Source of the DNA: a virus
Direction: 5' to 3' (one strand)
IMG/VR virus record: IMGVR_UViG_3300031963_000667
Span: 1-30,085 of that record
DNA length: 30,085 bases
Made by a program: the position numbers and the translations under genes. Positions 1 to 10,989 of the stretch are shown here, piece by piece. Below the pieces are notes generated by a model. It saw nothing but the letters and a program-made list of their open reading frames with translations, had not been told where the DNA came from and did not search any database. How positions within the stretch are numbered: the stretch's first letter is position 1; every line of letters starts with the position of its first letter.

Positions 1-1125
1 AGAGGTGTTGAACCTCTTAGCTGCTTCCATAGTCATGCGAGTTCTACATGACTTCTTGGGTTCTTGTGCTTGTATGTTCAACACCTCTGCTGCTCTTCTC
101 CGATAATCCTTACGGCTATCGTAGTTGGTTTCAATGTCAGCAGGTTTAGTAGGCAGAGGGTGGTTAACAATAGGTAAGAACTTACCAACAGGTCGCTCTA
201 GTCTAGTTAGCTCCTCAGCAACCCCATAGGTAAAGGGGTTTATCTGGTAAGCTACCTTCTGAATCTTGTTCAGAAAGTCAAGAGGAATCTCCCCCTGTAG
301 ACGGGTGGGGTCTCCCCTCCGAACTAAAGAATAGCCTCGCATTACCTCATTAAGTAGGTAACCACCAGGACGATCGTTAGTCCAATCGTTTGGTTCGATA
401 AGCATTGGCCATGCAAGTGGAGCAAACAGCTCTGCATCGGCCATTACCTTGTCCTTGATAGCGAGAAACTCAGGTGTTGGTACCACATAGGTCACTGTTA
501 CCTTCCCAAGCCTACGTAACTCCTTTGCGAACCAGCCACTGGTTGTCATGATGCAATCAAGCAGCCATGCACCTAACTTGATACGGTTAGCTCTACCCCA
601 TGCCTCCCACTCAGGTACTTCACACCTGTTCATCAGTGTTTGAGTGACAGTTAGCTTCTGCCTAGTACCAATAGACTTGTGGAAGTAGTTCTTCTTGAGT
701 GAAGCAAGCAATCCAGGTGCAGTCTTCTCGTAGTGTCTCATCTGACACTCAGACTCAATGGCATTGCCGATGCTATCACACACCGATTGCAGTTGATCGC
801 TACCTTTAGTGGTAGAGAACACCTTGTCAAAGGTAATCTTCAGTGCAATAGAAGCAGATGCTAATGGCTCTAGTTGAGATACATAGTTCTTGATGATGTC
901 AAATTGATGACCAGAACCACGCTTCAGGCGATACTCACTGGACTCCTCAATGTATTTAACAAGAGCAGGTAACAACGCATCAATGGACGCTGCACCGTAC
1001 ACTGTAGCGCTTGCATAGCTTTGTTCTTGTAACTTACGTGTGTTGTCTCTGAGGCGCTGGAGTCCTTGCCTGATTTGCTCTCTTTCTAGAGCTACTTGCT
1101 CATCGATCTGTGCAGGTGTTGCCAA
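1..1125 (-). CDS. T7-like single-subunit RNA polymerase, N-terminal part (cut by window edge)
   Basis: The reading frame is open from 1125 down to base 1 (375 codons) and continues outside the window. The product is the phage DNA-directed RNA polymerase that transcribes middle and late genes. Similarity to T7 gp1 is visible along the length: an N-terminal QVALEREQIRQG helix like T7 QLALEHESYEMG, a segment ending PNDWTNDRPGGY like T7 PPKPWTGITGGGY, and near the window edge a TMEAAKRF segment like T7 LEFMLEQANKF. The catalytic palm and fingers are outside the window. The start is TTG at 1125: the codon just upstream in frame is the stop of the previous gene (TAATTG), and no ATG occurs before about residue 128, so a TTG start fits the family length. 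The one-base spacing suggests translational coupling to the 45-aa gene upstream. Identity is well supported; the non-ATG start is an inference. Confidence 0.93.
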   Translation of the reverse strand, partial: MATPAQIDEQVALEREQIRQGLQRLRDNTRKLQEQSYASATVYGAASIDALLPALVKYIEESSEYRLKRGSGHQFDIIKNYVSQLEPLASASIALKITFDKVFSTTKGSDQLQSVCDSIGNAIESECQMRHYEKTAPGLLASLKKNYFHKSIGTRQKLTVTQTLMNRCEVPEWEAWGRANRIKLGAWLLDCIMTTSGWFAKELRRLGKVTVTYVVPTPEFLAIKDKVMADAELFAPLAWPMLIEPNDWTNDRPGGYLLNEVMRGYSLVRRGDPTRLQGEIPLDFLNKIQKVAYQINPFTYGVAEELTRLERPVGKFLPIVNHPLPTKPADIETNYDSRKDYRRRAAEVLNIQAQEPKKSCRTRMTMEAAKRFNTS

Positions 1126-3688: not shown

Positions 3689-3840
3689 TAAAACTCAATC
3701 TCCTCAAGTGTAGGTGTAGTATTGACAGCTGGTTTAGTGAAGCTATCGATGATCATGTCAAGAACAGACATCAATTCATTACCAGTCTTAGCTTTACCAA
3801 GAAGACCAGTAGCAATCTTCTTGTCAACAGTAATAGACAT
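3688..3840 (-). CDS. 50-aa first early gene, hypothetical
   Basis: Frame MSITVDKKIATGLLGKAK... ending TPTLEEIEF, 50 residues, a soluble helical peptide with no recognised family. A GGAG element eight bases before the ATG gives a reasonable ribosome-binding site. It is the first gene downstream of the 835-base non-coding stretch and of the sigma70-like promoter at 3900-3927, so it should be the earliest translated gene on the infecting genome. First early genes of T7-like phages commonly act on host functions, but no specific role is shown here. Confidence 0.75.
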   Translation of the reverse strand: MSITVDKKIATGLLGKAKTGNELMSVLDMIIDSFTKPAVNTTPTLEEIEF

Positions 3841-3899
3841 AATTAACTCCGTTGTAGTGGTGGTTTGTGTGATGGCCTAAGCGTAATATACCTCATCAG

Positions 3900-3927
3900 G
3901 ATATAACAGAGGATTAGGCTCTATCAA
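3900..3927 (-). promoter_or_regulatory. Putative host sigma70-type early promoter
   Basis: On the minus strand TTGATA (3927-3922), a 16-base spacer, then TATATC (3905-3900). The start point would fall about 50 bases before the first early ATG at 3840. The match to the -35 element is good and to the -10 moderate. The position fits a host-RNA-polymerase promoter for the early operon. Confidence 0.45.
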
Positions 3928-4145
3928 CCATGATCTAATTTATATAGCGCATGTGGATCTGCGCAAGTAACGTGGTCGTACAGTCAGGTCGGGTTGCAAC
4001 CTATAACTGTTCGCGGGATCGCTCGCTCCGCTAAGTCCGTCTTGTGATGACCACACATATTAAGTTATCTAGGTTCTGTAGCGCAGCGGAAGGACCGCTG
4101 GTGCTGGTAAGGAGCGACGGTCTCGCCTCCCCCACCGATGAACCT

Positions 4146-4174
4146 ACCATACCACGGCTGGCTCGATGTGTCAA
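4146..4174 (-). promoter_or_regulatory. Putative strong host sigma70-type early promoter
   Basis: On the minus strand a perfect TTGACA (4174-4169), exactly 17 bases of spacer, then TATGGT (4151-4146). It points leftwards into the early region, about 300 bases before the first early gene. By analogy with the T7 A1-A3 promoter group, this is a candidate for the major early promoter. The long leader between here and 3840 holds no convincing frame. Confidence 0.5.
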
Positions 4175-4176
4175 AC

Positions 4177-4675
4177 CCAAGAACCCAGTGGATCCGTGTA
4201 GCGCCCTAATTGACCCTATCAGCGTTCCTTATCGATCCGAACCGTAGCCGTGTCCAGTGTGTCGTATCAATGTAGTGCTGTTGTATTCGTGTTAGTTTGC
4301 GTGAGTGTGAATACTTTTTCTACGTGCCTCTGTAATGCCTCTCTACTGGCCTGTTGGTGTCAGTATACCTATTAACGGTTAGAGGCGCCTTATAGCCGCT
4401 TCTAGGCGTGGCTGAGAGCGTTATAACTGCGCTGTCCTGTTGAGTTGGAGAGGGCAGACAGATAACTTGATATCTACCCTAGTGTCATACCTATACCAAT
4501 GCACTACATATAGCGTTATACTCATCACTATCCATTACTATCACTACCTCTTATTGCGATTCATTCTCAATAAGGCGTGACGATAGATGATGACGGTGCC
4601 CCCAGTACCGTGTCCAGAGTATCTGCATCAGGCACAGGTACGCAGGACATTGGACACAGTGTTGCCTATTAACAA
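4177..4675. other. Non-coding stretch: probable genome-end junction (terminal repeat/packaging region)
   Basis: About 500 bases (part of an 835-base gap, 3841-4675) with no convincing gene on either strand. It lies between the last right-end genes (terminase, thyX, an 81-aa gene) and the first left-end early genes. In T7-like phages that junction exists only in concatemers or in contigs closed through the terminal repeat. Visible structure: a 7-bp hairpin CTTATTG/CAATAAG around 4551-4575; CCTATTAAC twice (about 4370 and 4664); CCGTGTCCAG at about 4247 and 4608 with GTGTCC inverted near 4655; and several GCCTCT/AGAGGC elements at 4325-4410. The exact ends cannot be read from sequence alone. 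Confidence 0.5.
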
Positions 4676-4921
4676 CTACCAGTGCTGAGAGTCCTTGATC
4701 GCAAGAGGGGGGCACTGGGGGGAAATACGAGACCCCTTGGCGATATAAGGCTTGTTAAATTTATGCCAAAAATTAAAGGACCCCCCAGCGTCACCTGAAA
4801 GGGCCTTATACTTCTTCTTAAGGTGTTTGTACCTCTGCTTAGCCTGACGCACCTTAACGGGCTTCCTAGACCCCTTAGAGTACCGCTTACCTTGTTCTCT
4901 CGGACCAGTACGACTATACAT
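4676..4921 (-). CDS. 81-aa basic hypothetical protein after thyX
   Basis: A Lys/Arg-rich protein (MYSRTGPREQGKRYSKGS..., then RQAKQRYKHLKKKYKAL) likely to bind nucleic acid. No known domain is recognised. Its start overlaps the thyX stop by eight bases (ATGTATAG), the same overlap size seen at three other junctions in this window, which supports the start. The C-terminal third is translated from runs of G and C (4702-4734 and 4781-4786) that form inverted repeats, so the real protein might end differently, or this 3' part may serve mainly as structured RNA or packaging DNA. It is the last gene before the genome-end junction. Confidence 0.55.
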   Translation of the reverse strand: MYSRTGPREQGKRYSKGSRKPVKVRQAKQRYKHLKKKYKALSGDAGGSFNFWHKFNKPYIAKGSRISPQCPPLAIKDSQHW

Positions 4922-5552
4922 GACTTAGTGCTAAACAAACACTAGGGAGATGCTCTTCTAGGAGCTTATAAGCACCTTCTGCGATCATCCTATGCTCTAG
5001 CTGTGTCCCATTACCGCACCTAAGCTGACAGTAATGAATCCAAGACCGAATAGTGCCATTCATATACAGTCGAGTAGGTGTAGCCAGCGGCAACACTTCC
5101 CTAGCACACTCCTTAGCTACCCCAGCTGCTATCATCTCTTCATAGACTGCTTGGCTATTAGCAAAGATACTTTCAATAGCAGCACTAAAGTAGTTAGTCA
5201 ACTTGCCTTCTGTATCTACCAATGACGACTGTCTGTTTGTATGATCTTGAAGACGCAGTTCAGGCATGATAGGATCTGCTGTTACTTTAGCATACCGTTG
5301 ACTGAACTCCTGAAAGCTAAAGGACCTATGCCTAAGGATCTGTGCTGCTATACTACGTGTAGTGTTAATCTCTACACACATGTTAACCATTTCAAATGGA
5401 GACCAATGTTGATGGTCAATAAGATACTTAATTAGTTTAGCACTGGTCTCAGTGTTGGATTGGTTAGCTGGATTACTAACACGTGCCATGTAACTAATAA
5501 GTTCTTCAGCGTTAGGTGTGATGTGTACAAGACTAACTGTGTGGGTGGTCAT
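4914..5552 (-). CDS. thyX: Flavin-dependent thymidylate synthase ThyX
   Basis: Makes dTMP from dUMP using methylene-tetrahydrofolate, FAD and NADPH, supplying thymidine for phage DNA synthesis in the cytoplasm. The ThyX signature RHRx7S is present as RHRSFSFQEFS (residues 74-84 from the chosen start), preceded by the typical HWSPFE segment (49-54). Later residues include TRLYMNGTIRSWIHYCQLR and EHRMIAEG, as in the family. Length 212 aa is normal. I place the start at ATG 5552 (MTTHTVSLVHITPNAEE); a start at 5582 would add ten atypical residues and enlarge the overlap with the upstream gene. ThyX is a known cyanopodovirus metabolic gene. Here it sits after the large terminase and a strong terminator, at the far right end of the genome, instead of with replication genes. 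Confidence 0.95.
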   Translation of the reverse strand: MTTHTVSLVHITPNAEELISYMARVSNPANQSNTETSAKLIKYLIDHQHWSPFEMVNMCVEINTTRSIAAQILRHRSFSFQEFSQRYAKVTADPIMPELRLQDHTNRQSSLVDTEGKLTNYFSAAIESIFANSQAVYEEMIAAGVAKECAREVLPLATPTRLYMNGTIRSWIHYCQLRCGNGTQLEHRMIAEGAYKLLEEHLPSVCLALSHV

Positions 5553-5733
5553 TTTGGTAGATAGAGGTGGCAGTGATATCATCCCATGCTGATGGGATAT
5601 AACGATTCCTAGTACTTACTGTATATTGAGAATCCAAGTAATCATCACTGACTTTAACTTGCTTTAACTCGTTAAGTGTCTTAGGGTGACGGAATTGATT
5701 ACGTAAGGGTTGCTTACGATATGTTCTGCTCAT
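5533..5733 (-). CDS. 66-aa basic hypothetical protein upstream of thyX
   Basis: A small polar protein (MSRTYRKQPLRNQFRHPKT... ending SIYQNDHPHS). The N-terminus is Arg/Lys-rich and the middle acidic (VSDDYLDSQY). From memory, short proteins starting MSRTxRxxP and containing a PSAWDD element occur in many cyanophages, with unknown role. The gene follows the hairpin and terminator cluster at 5848-5963 and overlaps thyX by 20 bases (50 if thyX starts at 5582), so the two are probably cotranscribed. No sure promoter is seen in 5734-5847. Confidence 0.7.
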   Translation of the reverse strand: MSRTYRKQPLRNQFRHPKTLNELKQVKVSDDYLDSQYTVSTRNRYIPSAWDDITATSIYQNDHPHS

Positions 5734-5966: not shown

Positions 5967-7694
5967 CTAAACCCAGGTGGGGACTGGGCTCTTTTTTTTA
6001 CCTCTAGCCTTACGTCTTTGCTCTAAATTCATACCCATAACTAGGTGATTTGTAGCAGCTTGAGGGTCATCTAGGAATGTGTCTAGGATGTCATTCCACT
6101 CCTCTTGCTTACGCATCTTAACAGCTTCATAGGCACTAATAGACATAGCGTCTGTAAAGTACTTAACGCCTTGTGCTAGTGAGTCTAATCTGTCGTCATG
6201 TTTAACAGCTCCCTTTTCTCTGCACATCCTAGACATCTGATAGAACAACATGTATAGGAGACGCTCCTCGGGTGCGGCTTCTTTATTCGAGTTGTAGTCC
6301 CATTCCACCACAGACCTATCAACAATAAGCCTATGCTGATTAAGGACTGGCTCAAGGGAATCAATAATCCTGTCTTCTTTACGGACATTAGCACGTACTT
6401 CCTCTACGTCTATTGCTTGTTTAGTTTGTTGTAGGTGCTTCTTAAACAGTTCTGCGACGATACCATCTCCGAAGTTTGTTTCGATGAGTAGTTTAGTAAC
6501 ATTGTACCGCTTACACCCACGCAGGATGTCAAGAAGTGTATTGTCGCTATAGCCGTCGCGATAAGCTCGTACCTCGTGAACGTAGAGAAACCCATTCTTT
6601 TGACTTATGTATGTTGCTGCTGTTTCATCACTACCCCTACCTGATGGGTCTACCGAGCAGATTGTTTCGGTGTAGTTACTCCAGTCTCCTTGTAATTGCA
6701 TCGGGGAATAGAAGTAATCACCTGGTAAGCCAACCGTAGGCAGATCCTTGAGAACATTACGAGGGTCACTGCACCACACAACAGCATCCGGCGCTTGAGT
6801 CGGGTTAACAGAGGTAATGATAAGATCTGAGAACTTAAGTGGGAACTTTTCTGCATCACTAAGAGTCGTATCCAACATGAATTGAAGCATGAAGTTACTA
6901 CGACCCATAGCAGCTTCACGTTCTACTAGGTCATCAGATGAGAAGCGATCAGGGTCTGTTACTTCCCAAGTTTCAGCACCTGTGTCTATGTCCTCTTGTA
7001 GTTGCGGTGCTAACAGTCCTTCATAGTTACTAAGTGAACGTGGGTAACGTGCTGGCCATACAAAGGGTCGATAGTTACGCTCAGCTAGTTTACGGTAAAT
7101 AGTAAAGGTAGTCTGGGGTGTACCCAGGTACATGATACGACTATCTTTCTTTGGTGTAAGAATAGACTCAGCCTCAGTACAGAGTTGTAGGAGCTTCTCC
7201 CTCATCATCTCAGTCATCGAGTTACCAGGAACCTCAATGTCATCAAGAATCATCAGGTCTGCACGAGAACCAGTTAGCTGACCCGTGATACCGACACTCT
7301 TAACGGAAGGTGCTTGGTGAGGAGAGCAGTTGACATCAAAGCTGATACGACTCCATCGGCTATCATCACTCTTAGGTCTAAGGTGTACTAACCATGGTGT
7401 CTCAATGATTAACTTCTGTAGGAAGATAGACATGTTATCTGCCCGCTCCTTAGAAGCTGAGATGATCATGATCTTCTTCTCAGGGTCATTAAAGAGTGTC
7501 CACAACACAAACGCTCCAGTAATCCAGCTCTTACCGACTCCTCGGAAGGCTTGGATCTGTAGTCGCTTAGGACCGTGTTGTAGATAATCAGCAATGGCGT
7601 ATTGAGCACGTGTTGGCGAGGGTAGATCCAGCTGTTGCCACAGTGCTTGAAGAAAGAGCTTAAAATCGCTTTTAAGGGCGGTTAAAGTGTCCAT
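5967..7694 (-). CDS. terL: Large terminase subunit (T7 gp19-like DNA packaging motor)
   Basis: ATPase and nuclease that cuts concatemers and drives DNA into the prohead together with the small subunit. It aligns along its length with T7 gp19. Numbering from ATG 7694: Walker A FRGVGKS (50-56), ISASKERAD, then GITGQLTGSRADLMILDDIE with Walker B (147-154), GTPQTTFTIYRKL, and the C-terminal RNase H-like nuclease with SVDPSGRGSDETAA, ETNFGDG and HDDRLDSLAQG. Length 575 aa is normal for the family (T7 586). A GTG at 7718, seven bases after AAGGGG, is an alternative start giving 583 aa. The tail ends KKKSPVPTWV; the lysines come from a run of eight A followed by G directly before a CCCAG/CTGGG stem, a possible slippage site. 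Confidence 0.96.
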   Translation of the reverse strand: MDTLTALKSDFKLFLQALWQQLDLPSPTRAQYAIADYLQHGPKRLQIQAFRGVGKSWITGAFVLWTLFNDPEKKIMIISASKERADNMSIFLQKLIIETPWLVHLRPKSDDSRWSRISFDVNCSPHQAPSVKSVGITGQLTGSRADLMILDDIEVPGNSMTEMMREKLLQLCTEAESILTPKKDSRIMYLGTPQTTFTIYRKLAERNYRPFVWPARYPRSLSNYEGLLAPQLQEDIDTGAETWEVTDPDRFSSDDLVEREAAMGRSNFMLQFMLDTTLSDAEKFPLKFSDLIITSVNPTQAPDAVVWCSDPRNVLKDLPTVGLPGDYFYSPMQLQGDWSNYTETICSVDPSGRGSDETAATYISQKNGFLYVHEVRAYRDGYSDNTLLDILRGCKRYNVTKLLIETNFGDGIVAELFKKHLQQTKQAIDVEEVRANVRKEDRIIDSLEPVLNQHRLIVDRSVVEWDYNSNKEAAPEERLLYMLFYQMSRMCREKGAVKHDDRLDSLAQGVKYFTDAMSISAYEAVKMRKQEEWNDILDTFLDDPQAATNHLVMGMNLEQRRKARGKKKSPVPTWV

Positions 7695-7762
7695 ATGGTA
7701 GAATATACGTAAAGGCACCTAGAGGCCCCTTGTAGAGGCTCCTAGGCACCAATGGTGAGGGG

Positions 7763-10510: not shown

Positions 10511-10757
10511 ACTTCTTACCCTTACGTGGTCGTGTGCGATTAGCTTTAGGTGATTCTAGTTTGCCTTTGTTAGGACCAGTATGGGAAGCATCCATACCAT
10601 CACCATTACCGTAGGTACCAAGCTTACGGTTTAGTTTATTAGCGTTAGTACGGATCTTGAGACCCTCTTTAGTTCTGTTGTATTCAGCTTGTTGCTTCAG
10701 CCGTTTGGCTTTAGCTTTAGGGTTATTCTTGTAGTAACTAGACGTGCGACTTGCCAT
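10503..10757 (-). CDS. 84-aa basic conserved-type phage protein
   Basis: A Lys/Arg/Asn-rich protein with SSYYKNNPKAKAKRLKQQAE at the N-terminus, then TYGNGDGMDASHTGPNKGKL and an RTRPRKGKK tail. From memory, small proteins with a GNGDGxDxSH element are widespread in marine cyanophages and relatives, with unknown function; a nucleic acid-binding virion or packaging role is plausible from charge and location. It overlaps the small terminase gene by 20 bases and the next gene by 8. Expression is well supported by this packing. Confidence 0.75.
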   Translation of the reverse strand: MASRTSSYYKNNPKAKAKRLKQQAEYNRTKEGLKIRTNANKLNRKLGTYGNGDGMDASHTGPNKGKLESPKANRTRPRKGKKYG

Positions 10758-10989
10758 ACAACCTCTTTTGGATAAGTTCAGGGTCTACCTTAGGCATGAT
10801 GGTGGCTAGTTTATCAAGGGGGTTACCGTCATATGCAACACCGCTGATGTCGTTTTTAGTCAACCAGTCACAAGCTGCTTTAAGATCAGCAGTAGAGGCT
10901 TCACCGCTCTTGATTCGGGTTAGAAGCTCTTTGGTGACAATGTTATGGAGTTCATTAAACATATCCTCCGTTGCTTTCTTGTTAGCCAT
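10738..10989 (-). CDS. terS: Small terminase subunit (T7 gp18-like)
   Basis: An 83-residue helical protein: MANKKATEDMFNELHNIV, KELLTRIKSGEASTADLKAACDWLTKNDISG. The helix-turn pattern, acidic and basic balance and size match T7 gp18 (89 aa), the DNA maturase A that recognises concatemeric DNA and presents it to the large subunit. The GEAxxADLxaaxxWLxxNxI element is typical of small terminases in T7-like phages. As in T7 it lies after the holin-like gene and before the large terminase, but here six genes separate the two subunits. The start overlaps the upstream stop by eight bases (ATGGCTAA). Confidence 0.85.
   Translation of the reverse strand: MANKKATEDMFNELHNIVTKELLTRIKSGEASTADLKAACDWLTKNDISGVAYDGNPLDKLATIMPKVDPELIQKRLYGKSHV

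Follow-up and report, generated by a model that had tools for sequence, protein, structure and literature searches.

In bacteriophage T7 (NC_001604), pausing at the concatemer junction matters for packaging. The T7 genome carries a 160-bp terminal repeat, which is directly followed by the word ATCTGTT. This word is a class II pause and terminator site of the T7 polymerase and has been described also at the phage concatemer junction (PMC11617373). In vitro, transcription of a template containing ATCTGTT yielded early-terminated RNA with the T7 polymerase as well as with the Syn5 polymerase, and for T7 the termination was mapped to the word (PMC9624206). The record of Syn5 (NC_009531) contains a 237-bp end repeat. 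In P-SSP7, a circular assembly had hidden the fixed ends, and a 206-bp terminal repeat was mapped on virion DNA (PMC3350473). The ends of most sequenced cyanopodoviruses are hidden because assemblers close the genomes into circles; P-SSP7 was corrected by sequencing the virion ends.

The DNA analysed here (the window) is an IMG/VR record that comprises 30,085 bases and represents a cyanopodovirus (Autographiviridae); all its genes point leftward. Its nearest isolate is DSL-LC07 (83.5% identity over 54% of the query), followed by S-CBP4, S-CBP1, and S-CBP3. A first-pass annotation had described terminase, thyX, and a small gene followed, across an 835-base non-coding stretch, by early genes and the polymerase. 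Profile matches, which also name a capsid protein, bear out this order, and the non-coding stretch is real in that the minus-strand ORFs stop at 4676 and restart at 3840, leaving 3841-4675 without a long sense ORF. Neither a tRNA nor a known RNA was found in it. The annotations of DSL-LC07, S-CBP4, and S-CBP1 show the same gene order, and Syn5 also has thyX near its right end, whereas P-SSP7 has talC in place of thyX. The window encodes the single-subunit RNA polymerase and the T7-type terminase pair that belong to a T7-type terminal-repeat genome (PF14700, PF22530, PF11123), and the ORF list, the profiles, and the relatives agree on the corresponding one-direction order, in which the early genes and the polymerase occupy the left side and the terminase the right end. 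The positions of all features are collected in Table 1.

Table 1. Features of the window, with positions on the strand as deposited; termini and terminal repeat are predictions.
Feature	Position	Strand	Basis and remarks
RNA polymerase, single-subunit, N-terminal part	1..1125	-	PF14700, phrog_414; cut by contig end
Block similar to cyanomyovirus tRNA-cluster non-coding DNA	3871..3925	-	81-90% identity over 42-56 nt
Structured leader RNA of the early transcript	3928..4060	-	covariation in 31 relatives, covariance model R1; 27 pairs, 5 helices
Early host-type promoter TTGACA-17-TATGGT, TG before -10	4146..4174	-	consensus scan; kept in group A relatives
Unique left-end DNA, terminal repeat to early promoter	4175..4463	.	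follows from predicted right end (4464/4463) and conserved promoter (4146..4174)
ATCTGT	4458..4463	-	only copy on transcribed strand; right terminus predicted just before it (4464|4463)
Predicted direct terminal repeat, 282 bp	4464..4745	.	bounded by left-end box and ATCTGT; one copy in contig
39-bp imperfect dyad TGTCCAG..(9-nt spacer)..CWGGACA	4611..4649	+	inside predicted repeat; reversed relative to gene direction
Small ORF, 81 aa	4676..4921	-	ORF list; last 70 bases within predicted repeat
C-rich word CCCCCCAGTGCCCCCC	4707..4722	-	23-38 nt inside predicted left end
Left-end box TTTGGCATAAATTTAACAAGCCTTA	4746..4770	-	gapless alignment of seven T7-like phages; left terminus predicted right after it (4746|4745)
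thyX, thymidylate synthase ThyX	4914..5582	-	PF02511
Terminase large subunit, T7 type	5967..7718	-	PF22530, phrog_38
Terminase small subunit	10738-10989		PF11123

Very probably, the window contains a T7-type concatemer junction that was collapsed by the assembly, with the ends at 4746/4745 and 4464/4463; the right-end cut is proposed to be guided by a polymerase pause. That the physical ends lie inside the window and that the contig is joined via the terminal repeat had both been claimed before and are well supported, P-SSP7 being the documented precedent of such an assembly error (PMC3350473). The repeat itself had been placed at about 4177-4675, and here the evidence leads to 4464-4745 instead. 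The repeated words and hairpins of the stretch, which had been suggested to be packaging signals, occur at chance level, the repeated words being weak two-copy matches; the 25-nt left-end box and the ATCTGT word are better candidates. The exact ends of this phage are predicted from the sequence.

For the left end, a matrix was built from the 25 nucleotides before the left ends of T7, T3, gh-1, K1F, phiYeO3-12, P-SSP7, and Syn5, whose terminal repeats are exact repeats in their records (that of P-SSP7 coming from virion DNA sequencing). The seven sequences align without gaps and finish in TA or CA, and the best match of the matrix on both strands of the window, 4770-4746 with 14.3 bits (the next has 12.5), provides the conserved sequence that precedes the left end in T7-type genomes. 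The same matrix ranks the box first in DSL-LC07 too, and when six genomes were scanned in leave-one-out fashion, the true end came out on top in five. With a matrix restricted to the enterobacterial and Pseudomonas phages, the box of the window is not the top match, and the left end therefore leans on P-SSP7, which has a closely matching box, on Syn5, whose box matches as well, and on one contig. This contig, the relative 3300035664_000025 (46,028 bases), has the counterpart of 4745 as its first base, and 264 of 268 bases are identical between its two ends. Box and right-end word were scored in nine sequences, NATL2A-133, whose record holds N, being left out. The box was at rank 1 on the sense strand in six of the nine isolates scored, its score was low in S-CBP3 and unclear in S-SRP01, and the distance from box to word was 155-282 bp in seven of the nine sequences; in S-CBP3, with its low box score, the distance is 180 bp by eye. 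Runs of C are found at a similar distance inside the left end in T7, T3, gh-1, K1F, P-SSP7, Syn5, S-CBP4, and others. The predicted left terminus falls about 70 bases inside the small ORF that the first-pass annotation had listed. The tail of this ORF may be untranslated; profile searches matched it to no family, and it is shorter in the relative L005, as read directly from the sequence. Words of the type TATTGAGAA recur near the ends, within the predicted terminal repeats, in 45-46 of 49 relatives and also in Syn5.

For the right end, the comparison is with the word that follows the repeat. The repeat is directly followed by ATCTGTT in T7, T3, phiYeO3-12, and Syn5, and by ACCTGTT in P-SSP7; SP6 and K1F deviate from this word position by at most one base, in gh-1 the word flanks the boundary on either side and the fit is loose, and phiKMV does not follow the rule. 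The window has the T7-type right-end word in the form ATCTGTC, whose seventh base is unlike that of T7 and Syn5, so that the first six bases of the class II terminator core ATCTGTT match; in most relatives the word reads ATCTGTC or ATCTGTA. The 49 distinct relatives compared form two groups whose non-coding DNA has diverged, and the region 100-450 nt after the box contains a single hexamer common to all 49, ATCTGT. DSL-LC07 and S-CBP4 share both the gene order and the end signals of the window, with predicted repeats of 227 and 221 bp, but were deposited as circles with no ends given. For S-CBP1, the predicted repeat has 183 bp.

The distribution of ATCTGT over the genomes is highly uneven between the strands. 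Of its 18 copies in the window, 17 are on the untranscribed strand and a single one, at the predicted end, is on the transcribed strand. In twelve sequences, namely the window and eleven further cyanopodoviruses of Synechococcus and Prochlorococcus, there are 17-42 antisense copies (20-42 in the eleven), while the sense strand has exactly one copy in eleven sequences and none in P-SSP7. Each single sense copy falls in the late/early junction, and in Syn5 it is at position 238, straight after the 237-bp repeat. Shuffling of synonymous codons in the called ORFs of at least 80 aa, which were uncurated, shows that, of 4,094 hexamers, none is as strongly depleted in sense coding sequence as ATCTGT, with 2 copies seen and 72.7 expected. 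These two, one in Syn5 and one in NATL2A-133, are junction copies inside called ORFs. The complement of ATCTGT is enriched in sense coding sequence (298 versus 202), and palindromes prevail among the other top depleted words, a pattern that is expected from restriction avoidance. In T7-like phages of enterobacteria and Pseudomonas, ATCTGT is only mildly depleted (24 versus 44.5), and T7 differs from the window in having two further sense copies in its genes, where the word has not been cleared. ACCTGTT, the right-end word of P-SSP7, is not depleted. The strand-specific purge fits an avoidance of transcription stops. The pattern of one copy, confined to the junction and depleted by strand, appears to be new for cyanopodoviruses, although an earlier report may exist in the subscription literature, which was little covered.

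The following sequence of events could connect these observations. Read leftward, the junction would begin with late right-end DNA, continue through a single repeat of 282 bp (from 4745 to 4464), and pass into the left-end DNA for early control. The phage RNA polymerase, moving leftward, would pause at the one copy of ATCTGT on the sense strand, and in this paused state the complex would guide the terminase to cut just upstream of the word, generating the right end. The left end would then be completed at the box once the repeat has been duplicated. Pauses elsewhere would truncate messages or misdirect the cutting, and ATCTGT would for this reason have been lost from the rest of the transcribed strand. 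The analysis itself demonstrates the signals, their positions, and the uniqueness and depletion of the word, whereas the pausing by the polymerase of this phage and the addressing of the terminase by the pause are inferences.

The right end could also be located near 4305-4310, where within about 20 bases the contigs L005, L116, and L127 end and L214 and L216 begin, at a point that is rich in length variation. The repeat would then have about 440 bp, and ATCTGT would be a mere transcription stop within it. We regard this as unlikely, since the repeat boundary coincides with ATCTGTT in four phages (T7, T3, phiYeO3-12, and Syn5) and with ACCTGTT in P-SSP7, and since a repeat of 440 bp would be longer than those of P-SSP7 and Syn5. 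Furthermore, length variation can by itself break assemblies, and over a wider stretch the density of contig ends is just about twofold that further on. It is still less probable that the genome is circularly permuted by headful packaging, in which case there would be no fixed ends and only ordinary intergenic DNA would separate the late from the early genes. The many relatives deposited as circular, and the record of 7B11-B, which describes its own genome as circularly permuted, would be in agreement with this, but P-SSP7 was likewise thought to be permuted before its virion ends were sequenced (PMC3350473). A T7-type terminase, the conserved end signals, and the end repeat in the record of Syn5 all argue for fixed ends.

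The depletion of ATCTGT might in principle have nothing to do with the genome ends and be caused by codon or dinucleotide bias, by host restriction, or by another DNA-binding factor, the junction copy being kept for an unrelated reason. Many palindromic words are depleted as well, and genomes transcribed in one direction often contain words that strongly favour one strand. However, ATCTGT is non-palindromic and has an enriched complement, and the effect is therefore strand-specific; codon-shuffled genes predict 73 copies against the 2 seen; and the copy that was kept is in Syn5 the right end of the terminal repeat. It is thus quite improbable, slightly more so than a right end near 4305-4310, that depletion and ends are independent. 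Fixed ends, with a proposed pause-guided right-end cut at ATCTGT, remain the preferred interpretation.

If the rule holds, terminal repeats can be called from sequence alone, misplaced records can be corrected, and polymerase pausing as the address of the terminase becomes testable beyond the enterobacterial phages. The near-complete and strand-specific loss of a pause word would also be a clear mark of transcription shaping a phage genome. An example of a misplaced record is S-B28 (NC_048171, L003), whose annotated 127-bp repeat (1-127 and 45298-45424) is inside the terminase gene. Instead of the true ends it probably represents a k-mer overlap of the assembler, 127 being a common assembler k-mer length, and the single sense ATCTGT of S-B28 is found at the junction and not at the annotated repeat. 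Similarly, the start of the S-CBP4 record HM559717 was rejected as a genome end because it begins inside a gene, away from the predicted end.

On the early side of the junction, two leftward sigma70-like promoters had been proposed. Both sites are present, and the one at 4174-4146 is conserved in relatives. The promoter role of 3927-3898 is doubtful because this site is within a block common to cyanomyovirus non-coding DNA. In an 8-kb region, promoter-like sites are not in excess (11 versus 13.2 in shuffles). Matches to the block are found in the cyanomyoviruses S-RIM8, S-SRM01, S-RIM32, and S-SZBM1, and in S-RIM8 and S-SZBM1 its counterpart adjoins tRNA-Ala. The abiF RNA was rejected as the identity of the block, as it only neighbours the block in the cyanomyovirus tRNA clusters.

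Between the conserved promoter and this block, the early transcript is predicted to form a structured leader RNA. Folding of single sequences is unremarkable (z-scores of -1.93 and -0.78), and the case for the RNA rests on covariation. In the alignment of 31 relatives 98.4% of the cells are paired, and 13 pairs are changed on both sides. There are 100 cells with changes on both sides compared to 28.5 in shuffles (reached in 0 of 500), and sliding the partners as a control left at most 2 such pairs. A comparison with 4,227 Rfam families gave no match at the gathering score or up to E = 5. The leader model does not match Syn5, and it is found with E-values below 1e-12 in unrelated aquatic phage contigs (L137, L139, L140, L156, L158), in all of which the 39-bp dyad follows on the same strand about 90-350 nt downstream. 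The exact core of the leader occurs in 66 viral stretches, S-CBP1 among them.

We see about an even chance that the different parts belong together as follows. In cyanopodoviruses, ATCTGT would be the sole polymerase-pause address of the right end and would have been cleared elsewhere on the transcribed strand, so that ends and packaging-linked pausing are readable from the sequence, and the adjacent uncatalogued leader RNA and the dyad, which travel together in unrelated aquatic phages, would suggest a shared module for genome ends and early control.

The dyad is present in 72 viral stretches, always with a 9-nt spacer of variable sequence, and is flanked by T in 54 of 54 and by A in 53 of 54 cases. 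Its settings in unrelated aquatic phages (L137, L140, L154, L159, L160) are beside tail-fibre genes and between terminase genes. A search of 84,980 prokaryote genomes gave no match, which speaks against the dyad as a host attachment site. As a right-end signal it is ruled out by the relatives L002, L004, and L006, which do not have it. It is also missing in DSL-LC07 and, as read from the sequence, in Syn5, and S-CBP4 has it in the other orientation. Both orientations occur in predicted terminal repeats, and the terminase tree needs six orientation changes. A flip by hairpin-primed duplication of the repeat, of which the dyad would be the record, is unsupported because the inverted block reaches beyond the arms; the six changes could be explained by exchange of two haplotypes as well. 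Relatives without the exact dyad can have another TGTCC..GGACA palindrome near the same place, as seen in L203:1-200 and at the right end of L012.
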